Shown: piece after piece, positions 13,497 through 23,004 of the stretch | Layout: each line of letters starts with the position of its first letter | How positions within the stretch are numbered: the first letter of the stretch is position 1 | Assembly: GCA_016124495.1 (NCBI GenBank) | Contig: WGNP01000018.1 | Location: 1 to 64,000, forward strand | Direction: 5' to 3' | Length of the DNA: 64,000 nt | DNA from: Hyphomonas sp. | GTDB lineage: Bacteria; Pseudomonadota; Alphaproteobacteria; Caulobacterales; Hyphomonadaceae | The notes under the pieces: model-generated | The model's input: only the letters and a program-made list of their open reading frames with translations | Databases searched by the model: none | Told to the model about the DNA's origin: nothing | Made by a program: the position numbers and the translations under genes

Positions 13497-13513
13497 TGGC
13501 GTCATGCCTGTCA
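13497..13513. promoter_or_regulatory. Weak third candidate TetR site
   Basis: TGGCGTCATGCCTGTCA keeps the outer TGGC and TGTCA, at the same 17-bp spacing, of the two stronger sites at 15366-15382 and 22987-23003, but the interior bases differ. It lies 73 bp before the GTG start of the first sulfatase. It is listed as a possible degenerate site only. Confidence 0.25.
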
Positions 13514-13585
13514 ATTCATTGGGAACGGGACCAGCGGGGCAACTGCGGCCGGGACATTCTTGAAAAGGCAGAGCGGGAGGCTGTG

Positions 13586-15349
13586 GTGCGGATAGGGGTA
13601 GCGGCGGTCGTTGCGTTAATCCTGGCGGCCGGCGAAGGCGCGCCGCAGGCACAATCCGCGCCGCCGCGCCCCAACATCGTCGTCATGATTATCGACGACG
13701 CCGCCTTCATGGATCTTGGCGCCTATGGCGGCGAAGCGCGCACTCCCAACATTGATGCGCTGGCCGCACGCGGCTCGCTGTTCACCCGCTACTATTCTTC
13801 GCCGCTCTGCTCGCCGTCGCGCGCGATGCTCCTTACCGGCATGGACAACCACCTCACCGGCGTCTCCACCATCCCCGAAGTCCTGCCGAAGGCGCACGAA
13901 GGCCAGCCTGGCTACACCATGCGCCTCGAGCCCGGCGTCACCACGCTCGCCGAACGTCTGAAGCCCCTCGGCTACCGCACGCTGATGACCGGCAAGTGGC
14001 ACCTCGGCAGCGGCGAGGGCGATCTGCCGAAAGCCCACGGCTTCGACCGGTCCTTCGCCCTCGACGCCTCCGGCGCGGACAACTGGGAAGACAAGTCCTA
14101 CATGCCTTACTACGCGGACGCGCCCTGGTACGAGGACGACGTGCCTGCAAGCCTGCCGGACGACTTCTATTCCTCCGAATTCATCGTCGACCAGATGATA
14201 ACCTACCTGGACGAAGGGGACGGCGAAGCGCCGTTCTTTGCCTACCTCGCCTTCATGGCCGTCCACATCCCGGTGCAGGCTCCGCCGGAATTCACCGCCA
14301 ACTATGCCGGTGTTTATGATGCCGGCTGGGACGCCATCCGCACCGCCCGCTGGGAGCGCGCCCGGGAACGTGGCTACGTGCCCGCGGATGCCGCCCTCGC
14401 GCCGATGCCTGCTGGCTTCCGCCCCTGGGACTCCCTTCCGCCGAAAGAGCAGAAACTCTACGCCGCCCGCATGCAGGTTAATGCCGGCATGCTCGAAGCG
14501 ATGGACCACCATGTCGGCCGCCTCGTTGAACACCTGAAATCCACTGGCCGGTATCAAAACACGATCTTTGTCGTCACATCCGACAACGGCCCGGAACCGT
14601 CACGCGGCGACACCGATCCGCGCCTGAAGTTCTGGATGGACATAAACGGCTACCATCTGAACCTGGAAGGCATGGGCGAGAAGGGCAGCTGGGCGTTTAT
14701 CGGGCCGGAATGGGCCATGGCCGCCGCCTCGCCGCATGACAAGTTCAAGTTCCTCGGCTCCGAAGGCGGCATCCGTGTGCCTTTCATCATGGCCGGCGCC
14801 GGTCTGGGTGATGGCGGCCGCGTCGATGCGCGGGCCTTTGTCACCGATGTGGCGCCAACACTTCTCGCGCTTGCGGGCGGCGGGCCGGAACTGGACGGCG
14901 CAAAGCCGATGACCGGCCGCAGCCTCTTGCCCCTGCTGCGCGGCGAGACAAGCGCCGTCTACGGCCCGGACGATGCCATCGTCATCGAAGTCTCAGGCAA
15001 CGCCGCCGTCATCAAGGGTGACTACAAGCTGACCCGCAACCAGCTCCCGCATGGCGACGCCCGGTGGCGCCTCTATGATCTCTCGAAGGATCCGGGTGAA
15101 ACGACCGACCTCAGCGCGTCGTTCCCCGAAATCTACGATGATCTGTCTGCGGAATATGCAGCCTACAGCAAGCGCGTCGGTGTCCTGGAAGTGCCGGAAG
15201 GTTACAATTCCCTCGATGAGGTCACCCGCCACTCGCTTGCCCGGCAGGAGGAACGCTACCGGCCTTACCTGATCGGCCTCGCCATCGCGCTCTTTGCCCT
15301 CATCGCAGGCGGCGCGCTCCTCTGGCGCCGCCGAAAGCAAAAGGCTTGA
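13586..15349 (+). CDS. Type I (formylglycine) sulfatase, exported, C-terminally anchored
   Basis: This alkaline-phosphatase-superfamily sulfatase hydrolyses a sulfate ester using formylglycine made from a cysteine. The signature C-x-P-S-R is CSPSRAMLLTG with Cys75, preceded by the metal ligands in IIDDAAFMDLG; GKWHLG and TSDNGPEP complete the active site. I chose GTG 13586 because GGGAGG sits five bases upstream and the new N-terminus is a signal peptide ending near AQA. An earlier ATG at 13496 would bury it. A transmembrane helix near residues 565-583, followed by RRRKQK, suggests a tail anchor with the enzyme in the periplasm. Length is 587 residues. A formylglycine-generating enzyme and a second sulfatase are encoded nearby. 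Substrate unknown. Confidence 0.9.
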   Translation: MRIGVAAVVALILAAGEGAPQAQSAPPRPNIVVMIIDDAAFMDLGAYGGEARTPNIDALAARGSLFTRYYSSPLCSPSRAMLLTGMDNHLTGVSTIPEVLPKAHEGQPGYTMRLEPGVTTLAERLKPLGYRTLMTGKWHLGSGEGDLPKAHGFDRSFALDASGADNWEDKSYMPYYADAPWYEDDVPASLPDDFYSSEFIVDQMITYLDEGDGEAPFFAYLAFMAVHIPVQAPPEFTANYAGVYDAGWDAIRTARWERARERGYVPADAALAPMPAGFRPWDSLPPKEQKLYAARMQVNAGMLEAMDHHVGRLVEHLKSTGRYQNTIFVVTSDNGPEPSRGDTDPRLKFWMDINGYHLNLEGMGEKGSWAFIGPEWAMAAASPHDKFKFLGSEGGIRVPFIMAGAGLGDGGRVDARAFVTDVAPTLLALAGGGPELDGAKPMTGRSLLPLLRGETSAVYGPDDAIVIEVSGNAAVIKGDYKLTRNQLPHGDARWRLYDLSKDPGETTDLSASFPEIYDDLSAEYAAYSKRVGVLEVPEGYNSLDEVTRHSLARQEERYRPYLIGLAIALFALIAGGALLWRRRKQKA

Positions 15350-15364
15350 GCAATCCTTTTATTT

Positions 15365-15383
15365 ATGGCACTTAAAGTGTCAT
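15365..15383. promoter_or_regulatory. Palindromic operator, TetR regulon site 1
   Basis: ATGGCACTTAAAGTGTCAT is a 19-bp palindrome with nine-base arms and a single mismatch, lying 101 bp before a five-gene operon whose fourth gene encodes a TetR repressor. A site 15/19 identical (TTGGCACTAATAATGTCAT) lies 35 bp before the haloalkane dehalogenase start. Family TetR proteins usually bind 15-20 bp palindromes near their own operon, which makes autoregulation here plausible. Confidence 0.65.
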
Positions 15384-21947: not shown

Positions 21948-21964
21948 GTCGCGCTCCCCCTTTG

Positions 21965-22951
21965 TTATCCTTGCCGCATGAAAGCGATGATCGCTTCTGA
22001 AAATGCGGCCGGTTGGTCTTCCTGCAGGAAGTGTCCGCCATTTTTGATGGTGACACAATCGGCACCGGGAATGCGAGCCTTGAAAATTGCGTCACCGCCC
22101 CTGGTGACGGGGTCGGTGTCGCTGAATGCAATCAGCGTACGGCCTGTGAAGGCCTCCAGAACCGCCCAGGCCCGGTCATTTGCCAGCCGGTCTTCCTTAT
22201 GCTGTGGCAGCAGCGGCACCAGCGCCGGAAACTGCCGCGCCCCCGCAATGTAGCGATCATCCGGGAACGGAGCGACATAGCCATCAAGGATGCGCGCGTC
22301 GGTCACACCCGACAGCAGTCCGAAAACGTCGCGCACCGAGAAGGAGGGCGACTCGCTCGCATACTTCACCCAGTAGAGAAATGCCCCCGGTCCGCCGGAC
22401 TGGAACTGCTCGCGTACCATGCCCGCATCGGGCACAGGCACTGCGGGATACATCTGGCCCAGGAAAGCCGACATCTCGTCCGAAATCATCGCCGTGCTGG
22501 GCAGGCCTGTGTTGGCCACCACAATCCGCCTGAACCGGCCGATCTGGTCGGCCGCCACACGAAGGCCGATCAGCCCGCCCCAGTCCTGGCAGACCAGGGT
22601 CAGACCGCTGAGGTCCATCTTTTTCAGCCACTGGCCCAGCCAGTCCACATGACGCGCATAGGTATAGTCGGCCATCGCGCCCGGCTTGTCGGATTTGCCG
22701 AAGCCGATCAGGTCCGGCGCCAGGACGCGGTAGCCCGCTTTCGTCAGCAGGGGGATCATCTTGCGATAGAGATAGCTCCACGACGGCTGTCCATGCAGGC
22801 AGAGGATCGGCTCGCCATCCTTCGGGCCCTCGTCGAGGTAATGCATCCGCATCGTCTCACCGCCGGGGCCGGAAATGTCGACATAGTTCGCAGCGAAGCC
22901 AAACTCGAACAGGTTGGTAAACTGCGCCTCCGGCGTCCTGAGAATCTGCAC
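21965..22951 (-). CDS. dhmA: Haloalkane dehalogenase
   Basis: This alpha/beta hydrolase of 328 residues fits subfamily HLD-I (DhlA/DhmA type). The start VQILRTPEAQF is characteristic, and GTG 22951 has AGGAGA nine bases upstream. The nucleophile Asp123 lies in LVCQDWGGLIGLR, followed by the halide-binding tryptophan. The oxyanion-region motif HGQPSWSYLYRK has Gln where most relatives have Glu or Asn. The acid is probably in FSDTDPVTRGG, and His307 is in GGHFLQED. The enzyme hydrolyses a carbon-halogen bond to an alcohol and halide. It has no signal peptide. Epoxide hydrolase is the main alternative, but QDWGG favours dehalogenase. Confidence 0.87.
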   Translation of the reverse strand: MQILRTPEAQFTNLFEFGFAANYVDISGPGGETMRMHYLDEGPKDGEPILCLHGQPSWSYLYRKMIPLLTKAGYRVLAPDLIGFGKSDKPGAMADYTYARHVDWLGQWLKKMDLSGLTLVCQDWGGLIGLRVAADQIGRFRRIVVANTGLPSTAMISDEMSAFLGQMYPAVPVPDAGMVREQFQSGGPGAFLYWVKYASESPSFSVRDVFGLLSGVTDARILDGYVAPFPDDRYIAGARQFPALVPLLPQHKEDRLANDRAWAVLEAFTGRTLIAFSDTDPVTRGGDAIFKARIPGADCVTIKNGGHFLQEDQPAAFSEAIIAFMRQG

Positions 22952-22985
22952 GTGTCCGGGTCTCCTGCAAGCTATGAGCGGTATT

Positions 22986-23004
22986 ATGACATTATTAGTG
23001 CCAA
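22986..23004. promoter_or_regulatory. TetR regulon site 2
   Basis: Read on the minus strand this is TTGGCACTAATAATGTCAT, identical at 15 of 19 positions to the palindrome at 15365-15383. It lies 35 bp upstream of the haloalkane dehalogenase start and between it and the divergent gene at 23058, so it could control both directions. Confidence 0.6.

Follow-up and report, generated by a model that had tools for sequence, protein, structure and literature searches.

A conserved palindromic operator and a TetR-family regulator that probably control desulfating and dehalogenating enzymes in Hyphomonas

What could bring together two sulfatases, a formylglycine-generating enzyme (FGE), a haloalkane dehalogenase and a TetR-family regulator in one genome region? 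Such a set is encoded in Hyphomonas sp. within the first 64,000 nucleotides of contig WGNP01000018.1 (assembly GCA_016124495.1; this whole stretch is hereinafter called the window). A preliminary description of this DNA proposed that the genes form a single circuit tied together by a shared operator and knew of no described pathway with this gene set. Indeed, in the PMC open-licence literature, we found no such pathway, no paper reporting this gene set under a TetR and no description of the operator with its targets.

Results and Discussion

The two sites originally reported as 19-bp sequences identical at 15 positions do agree at 15/19, and both, site 1 ATGGCACTTAAAGTGTCAT (15365-15383, plus strand) and site 2 TTGGCACTAATAATGTCAT (22986-23004, minus strand), are copies of one palindromic operator of 17 bp, TGRCACTNANAGTGYCA. 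Operator 1, the palindrome TGGCACTTAAAGTGTCA with A/T flanks, scores 27.9 bits, has orthologous sites in relatives and precedes the five-gene ISO-DUF1330-MBL-TetR-FGE operon, about 100 bp from the start codon used for the first gene. Operator 2 (26.0 bits) is located 35 bp 5' of the start codon of the dehalogenase, the first gene of the dehalogenase-sulfatase-membrane protein operon. The sites thus precede the two operons as described, but the operons themselves, which had been called divergent, converge because the FGE gene ends at 19860 on the plus strand and the membrane protein gene at 19843 on the minus strand. The best promoter-like match in this region is TTGACC-18-AATAAT, whose second hexamer overlaps with operator 2; the promoter scan of this region alone is not above chance (3 found vs 1.9 expected from shuffles). 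Across loci, a TTGAC, TTGAG or TTGCC word occurs 17-33 bp upstream of the site centre in 31 of 71 sites, compared with 3 and 1 in control stretches. An ORF without a Pfam match (23058..23993, plus strand), found in 4 loci, is divergent from the dehalogenase and shares the intergenic region of operator 2; its membership in the regulon is doubtful.

The motif is short and was spotted by eye, which might suggest that the resemblance of the two sites is fortuitous. We consider the probability of this negligible: chance is already refuted by the conservation described below, along with the shuffles, the matrix scans, the hold-out and the sites that follow their genes. A search of the window with the joint pattern of the two sites at up to 3 mismatches gave 3 rows (site 1, site 2 and site 1 read backwards) vs 0.36 expected, a number reached in 1 of 100 shuffles. 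In the organism's own genome (3.27 Mb), the joint pattern without mismatch identifies only sites 1 and 2, and the symmetric consensus with up to 1 mismatch identifies 3 sites, namely sites 1 and 2 and C4:18348 (24.5 bits) on another contig; at 2 mismatches there is no excess (11 rows vs 14 in the reversed control). The other sites listed for this genome score 12.0-15.2 bits; one of these, C15:8593 (15.1 bits), is located 142 bp 5' of a gene without a Pfam match. Two further candidates in the window were rejected. The site at 60344 (13.9 bits, 18 bp 5' of an ammonium-transporter/histidine-kinase gene) is taken as chance because the surrounding stretch matches only 1 of the 10 relatives searched, and the one at 54586 (10.0 bits) lies inside a called ORF.

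A hold-out matrix trained on 16 sites from the window clade only was scored on 82 other, more distant TetR loci and, at 14 bits, detected a site in 69 of these (mean 4.7 and maximum 25 for 100 permuted matrices); the separation is smaller at 12 bits (76/82 vs a permuted mean of 11.0 and maximum of 48). A count of 5-mer dyads in 213 upstream regions, which involves no matrix, returned the same palindrome, with TGACA-N7-TGTCA (22) and TGGCA-N7-TGCCA (21) as the top dyads and 3 for the best shuffled dyad. The all-site matrix, trained partly on loci that were also scored, yielded 146 sites of at least 11 bits in 79 loci (permuted mean 14.2), 124 of them near a called gene start (permuted mean 4.0); locus counts here and below are not independent because many loci represent close relatives. 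A site of 15 bits is present within 9 kb of the TetR gene in 73 of 92 loci (1-3% for permuted matrices) and in 8 of the 10 loci where the TetR is 30-40% identical; for 11 of the 19 loci lacking a 15-bit site, the best score is 11-14.8 bits, and some of the contigs are short. At up to 1 mismatch, 105 genomes contain 86 sites, of which 28 are within 12 kb of tetR (~0.3 expected), although such a site occurs near tetR in only 18 of the 67 tetR genomes. The motif had been predicted to recur upstream of the orthologous operons only. It does recur there, even when the gene order is rearranged or the genes are separated, but it is not confined to them, given the scattered background at 1 mismatch (39 sites away from tetR in the genomes that have it, plus 19 sites in 38 genomes without tetR).

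The regulator gene (18320..18931, plus strand) lies inside the operon of operator 1. Its product matches PF00440 below the cut-off and has no close solved homolog (best phmmer E 9e-5), and the confident AlphaFold2 model (pLDDT 90.9) is all-helical; a Foldseek search with this model gave a list of TetR-family structures (TM 0.34-0.73, best match 0.65/0.70, with one match below E 0.001). Among 91 homologs, the recognition helix hardly varies. The protein thus resembles the TetR-family local repressors of catabolic operons, a general kind of regulator, in its modeled fold with an N-terminal helix-turn-helix, in the palindromic operator at its own and neighboring promoters, and in the location of tetR within a regulated operon; FasR, EthR and TtgR are presumably relatives in fold. 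It differs from the known repressors of this kind in the lack of a close solved homolog and in an operator and target set for which we found no description. A tblastn search of plasmids with the TetR gave no match, and in four loci (L058, L066, L070 and L144) a TetR homolog is present whereas the cluster is absent.

These data suggest that the sites are bound by this TetR. Alternatively, a different regulator could bind the palindrome, with the TetR being a passenger that regulates something else, an option compatible with the background level of sites in genomes without tetR and with the 22.5-bit site of the dehalogenase gene in genome G063, where no tetR was found. We regard it as quite unlikely: the density of sites is about 100-fold higher around tetR, the dehalogenase genes of the tetR-less genomes G021 and G002 have no site, and in four loci (L063, L067, L206 and L209) sites are located 5-61 bp 5' of the called start of distant tetR homologs (34-39% identical).

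The operator also follows its target genes. The dehalogenase (21965..22951, minus strand; NCBIfam PRK00870, 404 bits with a cut-off of 265) is of the HLD-I type; the nearest solved chains are 5esr, 6f9o and 4mj3, which we take to be DccA, DpcA and DmrA, all HLD-I. It is similar to these enzymes over most of its length and in the catalytic pentad, D123, W124, W194, D280 and H307, which is retained in 18/18 orthologs and, as placed by alignment to 5esr/6f9o, presumably comprises the Asp-His-Asp triad and two halide-binding Trp residues; a feature of the present enzyme is its link to sulfatases through an operator. Among the dehalogenase orthologs, 24 of 29 have a site of at least 12 bits 32-44 bp upstream. 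In tetR-bearing genomes where the dehalogenase gene is away from tetR, on another contig or at 0.7-0.9 Mb, the site is present in 6 of 8 cases, 32-38 bp 5' of the start codon; in genomes without a detected tetR, it is present in 1 of 3. Many clusters lack the dehalogenase, and in other lineages its operon position is often occupied by a glutathione transferase (GST), a substitution overlooked in the preliminary description. In 24 cases, the gene immediately following a site belongs to the GST cluster, which shows a weak match, far below the cut-off, to isoprene-epoxide GST. Next in the operon are sulfatase S2 (20289..21947, minus strand; PF00884, E 1.2e-55; nearest solved structure, the kappa-carrageenan S1 sulfatase 6prm), with a CAPSR signature (CxPSR in 61/61 homologs), and a small membrane protein of no family (19843..20301, minus strand), which is encoded in 13 loci and, in 11 of these, belongs to an operon preceded by a site.

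The operon of operator 1 starts with ISO (15484..16758, plus strand), a DSBA/2-hydroxychromene-2-carboxylate isomerase-like protein (PF01323; 2imd, E 1e-8) in which only the C-terminal half, residues 234-424, is covered by the matches. It is followed by a protein (16771..17229, plus strand) that we call DUF1330-like only, given that it falls short of the Pfam gathering score for PF07045 (22.0 vs 23 bits), with RPA0582 (3dca, E 1e-17) as a solved relative, and by an MBL-fold hydrolase (17234..18319, plus strand; PF12706) with an N-terminal membrane anchor discerned by eye, for which the best solved chain is the arylsulfatase 8gyg (E 1.9e-20) and the best NCBIfam match, below the cut-off, is RNase Z. 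Downstream of tetR is the FGE gene (18928..19860, plus strand; PF03781, E 2.4e-58; nearest solved chains, FGEs), which encodes a predicted lipoprotein with the active-site Cys268/Cys273 in 45 of 46 homologs and one gap. The gene identities originally proposed largely hold, with two CxPSR sulfatases, an FGE and an HLD-I-type dehalogenase; the AtsA likeness of the metallo-hydrolase is tentative, given the two similarities just mentioned, the isomerase likeness is limited to half of the protein, and the DUF1330 match is just below the cut-off.

Sulfatase S1 (13496..15349, plus strand; PF00884, CSPSR signature), whose translation, as judged by eye, probably starts near 13583, is a neighbor that, in this clade, lacks a credible operator. 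The C-x-P-S/T-R signature is present in 36 of 39 homologs, 4 of them with T, and 3 have gaps. At 13497, the supposed weaker version of the operator (TGGCGTCATGCCTGTCA) reaches 4.4 bits, the seventh-ranking score in the window. This score, together with the absence of a site of at least 11 bits from all 8 S1 genes of the clade, window included, led us to reject it as an operator in this clade; of the 7 relatives of the window clade, L048 and L049 have the identical stretch. In other lineages, S1 orthologs have such a site in 28 of 31 loci. The shared-operator regulon is upheld by the recurrence of the motif in relatives, but without S1 as a target in this clade.

The third site, C4:18348, is located 5' of a gene of no known family, a target elsewhere in the genome that had been overlooked. 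Of the 9 orthologs of this gene (at least 63% identity), 5 have sites of at least 20 bits, one has a site of 11.8 bits and three have none; no site was found for four distant homologs (31-32%). A DUF1330-like label given to this gene by eye was dropped because it had no Pfam, PDB or BLASTP support.

Taken together, the sequences show a shared, conserved operator that follows its genes, its co-location with this TetR and intact catalytic residues. We are fairly confident, on these genomic grounds, that the TetR and the conserved sites jointly control the desulfating and dehalogenating enzymes, as a TetR-repressed regulon of at least three units. Under the proposed model, the TetR would control at least three transcription units by binding the 17-bp palindrome at their promoters: the five-gene operon to which its gene belongs, the operon for the dehalogenase, sulfatase S2 and the membrane protein, and the no-family gene on the other contig. 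A small molecule, probably the substrate of the pathway or one of its early products, would release the TetR and thereby induce the units jointly. The sulfatases, predicted to be periplasmic, membrane-anchored and activated by the lipoprotein FGE, would, with the MBL hydrolase, desulfate an organosulfate; the resulting molecule would then enter the cell, where HLD-I (elsewhere often GST, at the same operon position) and ISO may remove or rearrange an electrophilic group, for example, a C-halogen. Both the order of the enzymes and the substrate are suggested by knowledge of the families.

The gene set points to an undescribed pathway for natural sulfated compounds. The identity of these compounds is a separate issue. 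That the pathway is dedicated to halogenated sulfate esters of natural origin (algal chlorosulfolipids, for example), which would be sensed by the TetR, desulfated by the sulfatases and dechlorinated by HLD-I or GST, is a long shot; chlorosulfolipids are reported, in excerpts of PMC13413282, from freshwater chrysophytes and marine blooms. A considerably stronger candidate, albeit one to which we give somewhat less than even chances, is that the substrates are sulfated polysaccharides or aryl/steroid sulfates, with the dehalogenase homolog and GST acting on a halogen-free epoxide, lactone or ester or detoxifying algal cell-wall by-products. This fits the similarity of S2 to carrageenan sulfatases and of MBL to arylsulfatase, the weak GST match noted above and the clusters that lack the dehalogenase; it is at odds with the invariant pentad and the above-cut-off score of the dehalogenase and with the lack of a glycoside hydrolase or polysaccharide lyase among the selected cluster proteins given to Pfam. 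A precedent of this kind comes from the flavobacterium Zobellia galactanivorans, where, in the passages of PMC5613140 on this pair, the TetR ZGAL_235 adjoins the haloalkane dehalogenase-like ZGAL_234, the two being co-induced in an alga-degrading context; the pairing of TetR and dehalogenase is therefore already in print. There, unlike here, the dehalogenase is DbjA-related (40%), lies beside a kappa-carrageenase and is up-regulated by kappa-carrageenan; the pair, as described in those passages, includes no shared operator, sulfatase, FGE or ISO, and the authors suggest a role in coping with halogenated compounds (PMC5613140).

A system serving mainly for defense against toxic amphiphiles, via desulfation, glutathione conjugation or dehalogenation, and export, appears unlikely, although less so than the chlorosulfolipid pathway. 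An AcrB-type pump and a membrane-fusion protein adjoin the TetR in L196, genes of similar size are beside or near it in L195, L197 and L198, and the frequency of GST behind a site is in line with conjugation; however, a set of two sulfatases, FGE and hydrolases is rather suggestive of catabolism, and no pump was noted among the annotated neighbors in the Hyphomonas clusters. A regulated organosulfate operon with a sulfatase as the first step is also known from the SLF alkyl sulfate module of Psychrobacter pP62BP1, which, as far as excerpts of PMC10779009 describe it, has, unlike the Hyphomonas set, an AraC/XylS regulator, an alkyl sulfatase, alcohol and aldehyde oxidoreductases and a CoA synthetase.

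Conclusions

According to excerpts of PMC6299022, haloalkane dehalogenases occur widely in organisms that are not on record as degraders of synthetic organohalogens, and they are suggested to have a role with natural halogenated compounds. The operator described here, which is conserved and links an HLD-I gene with those for sulfatases, FGE and GST also when they are far from each other, provides a concrete, testable physiological context, and the TetR offers a handle with which the natural inducer and substrate could be identified. Should the chlorosulfolipid pathway prove true, it would give this HLD-I group a native role and reveal a bacterial sink for chlorosulfolipids.

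Operator sites and their conservation

The two 19-bp predicted operators of the preliminary description lie at 15365-15383 (plus strand), before the operon for an HCCA-isomerase-like protein (ISO), a DUF1330-like protein, a metallo-hydrolase (MBL), TetR and a formylglycine-generating enzyme (FGE), and at 22986-23004 (minus strand), before the operon for a haloalkane dehalogenase, the sulfatase S2 and a small membrane protein; they are identical at 15 of 19 positions. These operons, described as divergent, in fact run towards each other. Their joint pattern occurs in 3 rows in the window (one being the first site read backwards) versus 0.36 expected from shuffling, and only these two sites fit it without mismatch in the genome (3.27 Mb, 93.7% complete). 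The symmetric consensus TGRCACTNANAGTGYCA with one mismatch allowed yields a third site on another contig (C4:18348); at two mismatches, the 11 rows do not exceed those of the reversed control (14), so weaker sites in this genome carry no weight. The weaker operator proposed at 13497, before the first sulfatase (S1), is not borne out: this stretch scores 4.4 bits in the site matrix, against 27.9 and 26.0 bits for the two sites.

A 24-codon ORF at 15419-15490, between the first operator and ISO, has similar translations in L046, L048, L049 and, less so, L050, and could be either a leader peptide or a chance occurrence. At 60344, a 13.9-bit site precedes by 18 bp a fusion of an ammonium transporter, a histidine kinase and a response regulator; the surrounding stretch is present in 1 of 10 relatives.

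Of the family's 105 genomes, 67 gave a TetR homologue at E up to 1e-15, and 25 named loci from Hyphomonas, Henriciella, Caulobacter, Mesorhizobium, Comamonadaceae and others were included; the compared loci are related, so counts of loci are not independent. With a matrix built on 28 distinct sites, 79 loci (1.38 Mb) yield 123 positions of at least 13 bits, versus a mean of 4.3 and a maximum of 16 for 50 symmetric column permutations; at 11 bits or more there are 146 sites, 124 of them near a called gene start, versus 14.2 and 4.0 in 30 permutations. Because this matrix was trained on part of the scored loci, the search was repeated with a matrix restricted to 16 sites from the window clade, on 82 other loci with TetR identity below 70%. 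Sites were found in 69 of these at 14 bits (permuted mean 4.7, maximum 25), in 76 at 12 bits (11.0, 48) and in 79 at 10 bits (23.0, 63). Counting 5-mer palindromic dyads in 213 upstream regions, with no matrix involved, puts TGACA-N7-TGTCA (22) and TGGCA-N7-TGCCA (21) at the top, followed by CAGGC-N5 (14); the best shuffled dyad reaches 3. The motif recurs upstream of orthologous operons, as predicted, and in the close clade precedes both ISO and the dehalogenase. A 15-bit site lies within 9 kb of TetR in 9 of 10 loci with TetR identity of at least 70%, 35 of 45 at 50-70%, 21 of 27 at 40-50% and 8 of 10 at 30-40%, and is missing in 19 of 92 loci.

Link of the operator to TetR

Allowing up to one mismatch, the 105 genomes contain 86 distinct sites, of which 28 are located within 12 kb of tetR, versus about 0.3 expected; these 28 belong to 18 of the 67 genomes with tetR. 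The other sites, 39 at other places in genomes with tetR and 19 in the 38 genomes without it, are background; the motif is enriched near tetR but not confined to the orthologous operons. A distant tetR in each of L063, L067, L206 and L209 has a site located 5-61 bp upstream of its called start. Across 91 homologues, the recognition helix RTVFRHF (residues 61-67) shows little or no change, in contrast to much of the remaining protein, and the predicted structure has a confident TetR-like fold. In L206 and L207, the distant TetR with a site adjoins a gene for a 628-aa protein (DUF3604 in L206), which suggests that the regulon family has another branch. The TetR proteins of L046-L049 are 93-98% identical to that of the window, yet the record titles read Acidobacteria or Sulfopaludibacter; these look like misnamed MAGs.

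A TTGAC-like word occurs 17-33 bp upstream of the site centre at 31 of 71 sites (3 and 1 in control stretches), the operators have A/T-rich flanks on both sides, and the best promoter-like match of the window, not significant by itself, places its second hexamer inside the second operator. These features fit a repressor that would cover the core promoter and control the operon holding its own gene; by analogy with the family, TetR would bind this DNA, repress and respond to an inducer.

Gene content of the probable regulon

Searches of Pfam, NCBIfam and PDB uphold the initial assignments of the sulfatases, FGE, TetR and dehalogenase; the DUF1330-like protein scores just under the family cut-off. 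S1 and S2 are formylglycine sulfatases, with the CxPSR signature in 36 of 39 S1 (3 gaps; 4 with T for S) and 61 of 61 S2 sequences. The dehalogenase passes the curated cut-off (nearest structures 5esr, 6f9o and 4mj3), and its catalytic pentad is kept in 18 of 18 orthologues. For ISO, the HCCA-isomerase/DSBA-like match covers the C-terminal half; the nearest solved structure for MBL is an arylsulfatase, and the small membrane protein has no family. Inspection by eye suggested membrane anchors on S1, S2 and MBL. Both FGE cysteines are present in 45 of 46 sequences, and a simple pattern finds a lipobox-like word at the N-terminus in 40 of 47, with starts uncertain; the window's FGE (18928-19860) has an LAAC lipobox and looks like a lipoprotein. 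Judging from sequence, it is probably a periplasmic formylglycine-generating enzyme.

Across lineages, the first genes behind sites are ISO (26), a GST cluster (24), S1 (21), the dehalogenase (18) and a DUF4345-like gene (9), with DUF1330-like, TetR, FGE, S2 and others less frequent. Of the 54 clusters in which both flanks of S2 are present, 12 have the dehalogenase without GST, 23 have GST without the dehalogenase, 4 have both and 15 have neither; the position immediately upstream of S2 is taken by GST (26), the dehalogenase (12), S1 (11) or other genes (5). Some lineages also have DUF4345, DUF2855, enoyl-CoA hydratase, DJ-1, SDR and RND-pump genes. In other lineages, S1 has a site of at least 11 bits at 28 of 31 loci (15 bits at 19), compared with 0 of 8 loci in the window clade (S1 at 13496-15349, plus strand), where the gene has apparently dropped out of the regulon. 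Pump-sized genes lie beside or near TetR in L195-L198 (confirmed as HlyD plus AcrB-type in L196), and L135 and L199 have a gene for an SdsA-like alkyl sulfatase close to the cluster.

Probable targets in trans

Of the family's 29 dehalogenase orthologues (at least 62% identity), 24 have a site of at least 12 bits, and 20 of the 29 one of 15 bits, at 32-44 bp upstream of the start codon. Eight dehalogenases of tetR-bearing genomes are away from tetR, on a separate contig or at a distance of 0.7-0.9 Mb, and six keep the site at 32-38 bp (the misses are in G022 and G003); where no tetR was detected, 1 of 3 has it. Of the five orthologues among the 29 that lack a site, two (L236, L243) have S1 beside them on the same strand and could lie within an operon.

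The third site in this genome stands 18 bp before the GTG start of a gene at L101:8384-9046 (same contig), whose product has membrane-like ends by eye and gave no family, structure or DUF1330 match. Operator and gene span L101:8349-9046, with a convergent GST-like gene beside. Nine orthologues (at least 63% identity) comprise five with sites of at least 20 bits, one with 11.8 bits and three with none; four distant homologues lack a site, and one further homologue is cut short.

Predicted function

The gene set suggests periplasmic desulfation, after which an electrophilic group would be removed inside the cell. Chlorosulfolipids, reported from freshwater chrysophytes and from a bloom in the Eastern Pacific (PMC13413282), match both chemistries, but nothing in the data singles them out as the substrate; sulfated phenols, steroids, surfactants or polysaccharides are alternatives. 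The nearest printed case that we found is in Zobellia, where kappa-carrageenan induces a TetR gene and a gene for a haloalkane dehalogenase-like protein, located beside a kappa-carrageenase (PMC5613140). The open-licence literature yielded no description of the present gene set under TetR. A review notes dehalogenases in organisms without a record of degrading synthetic organohalogens (PMC6299022). Comparative analysis indicates that the TetR-type regulon is real and widely conserved; its regulatory kind is ordinary, and its interest lies in a path toward the natural role of the HLD-I dehalogenase.
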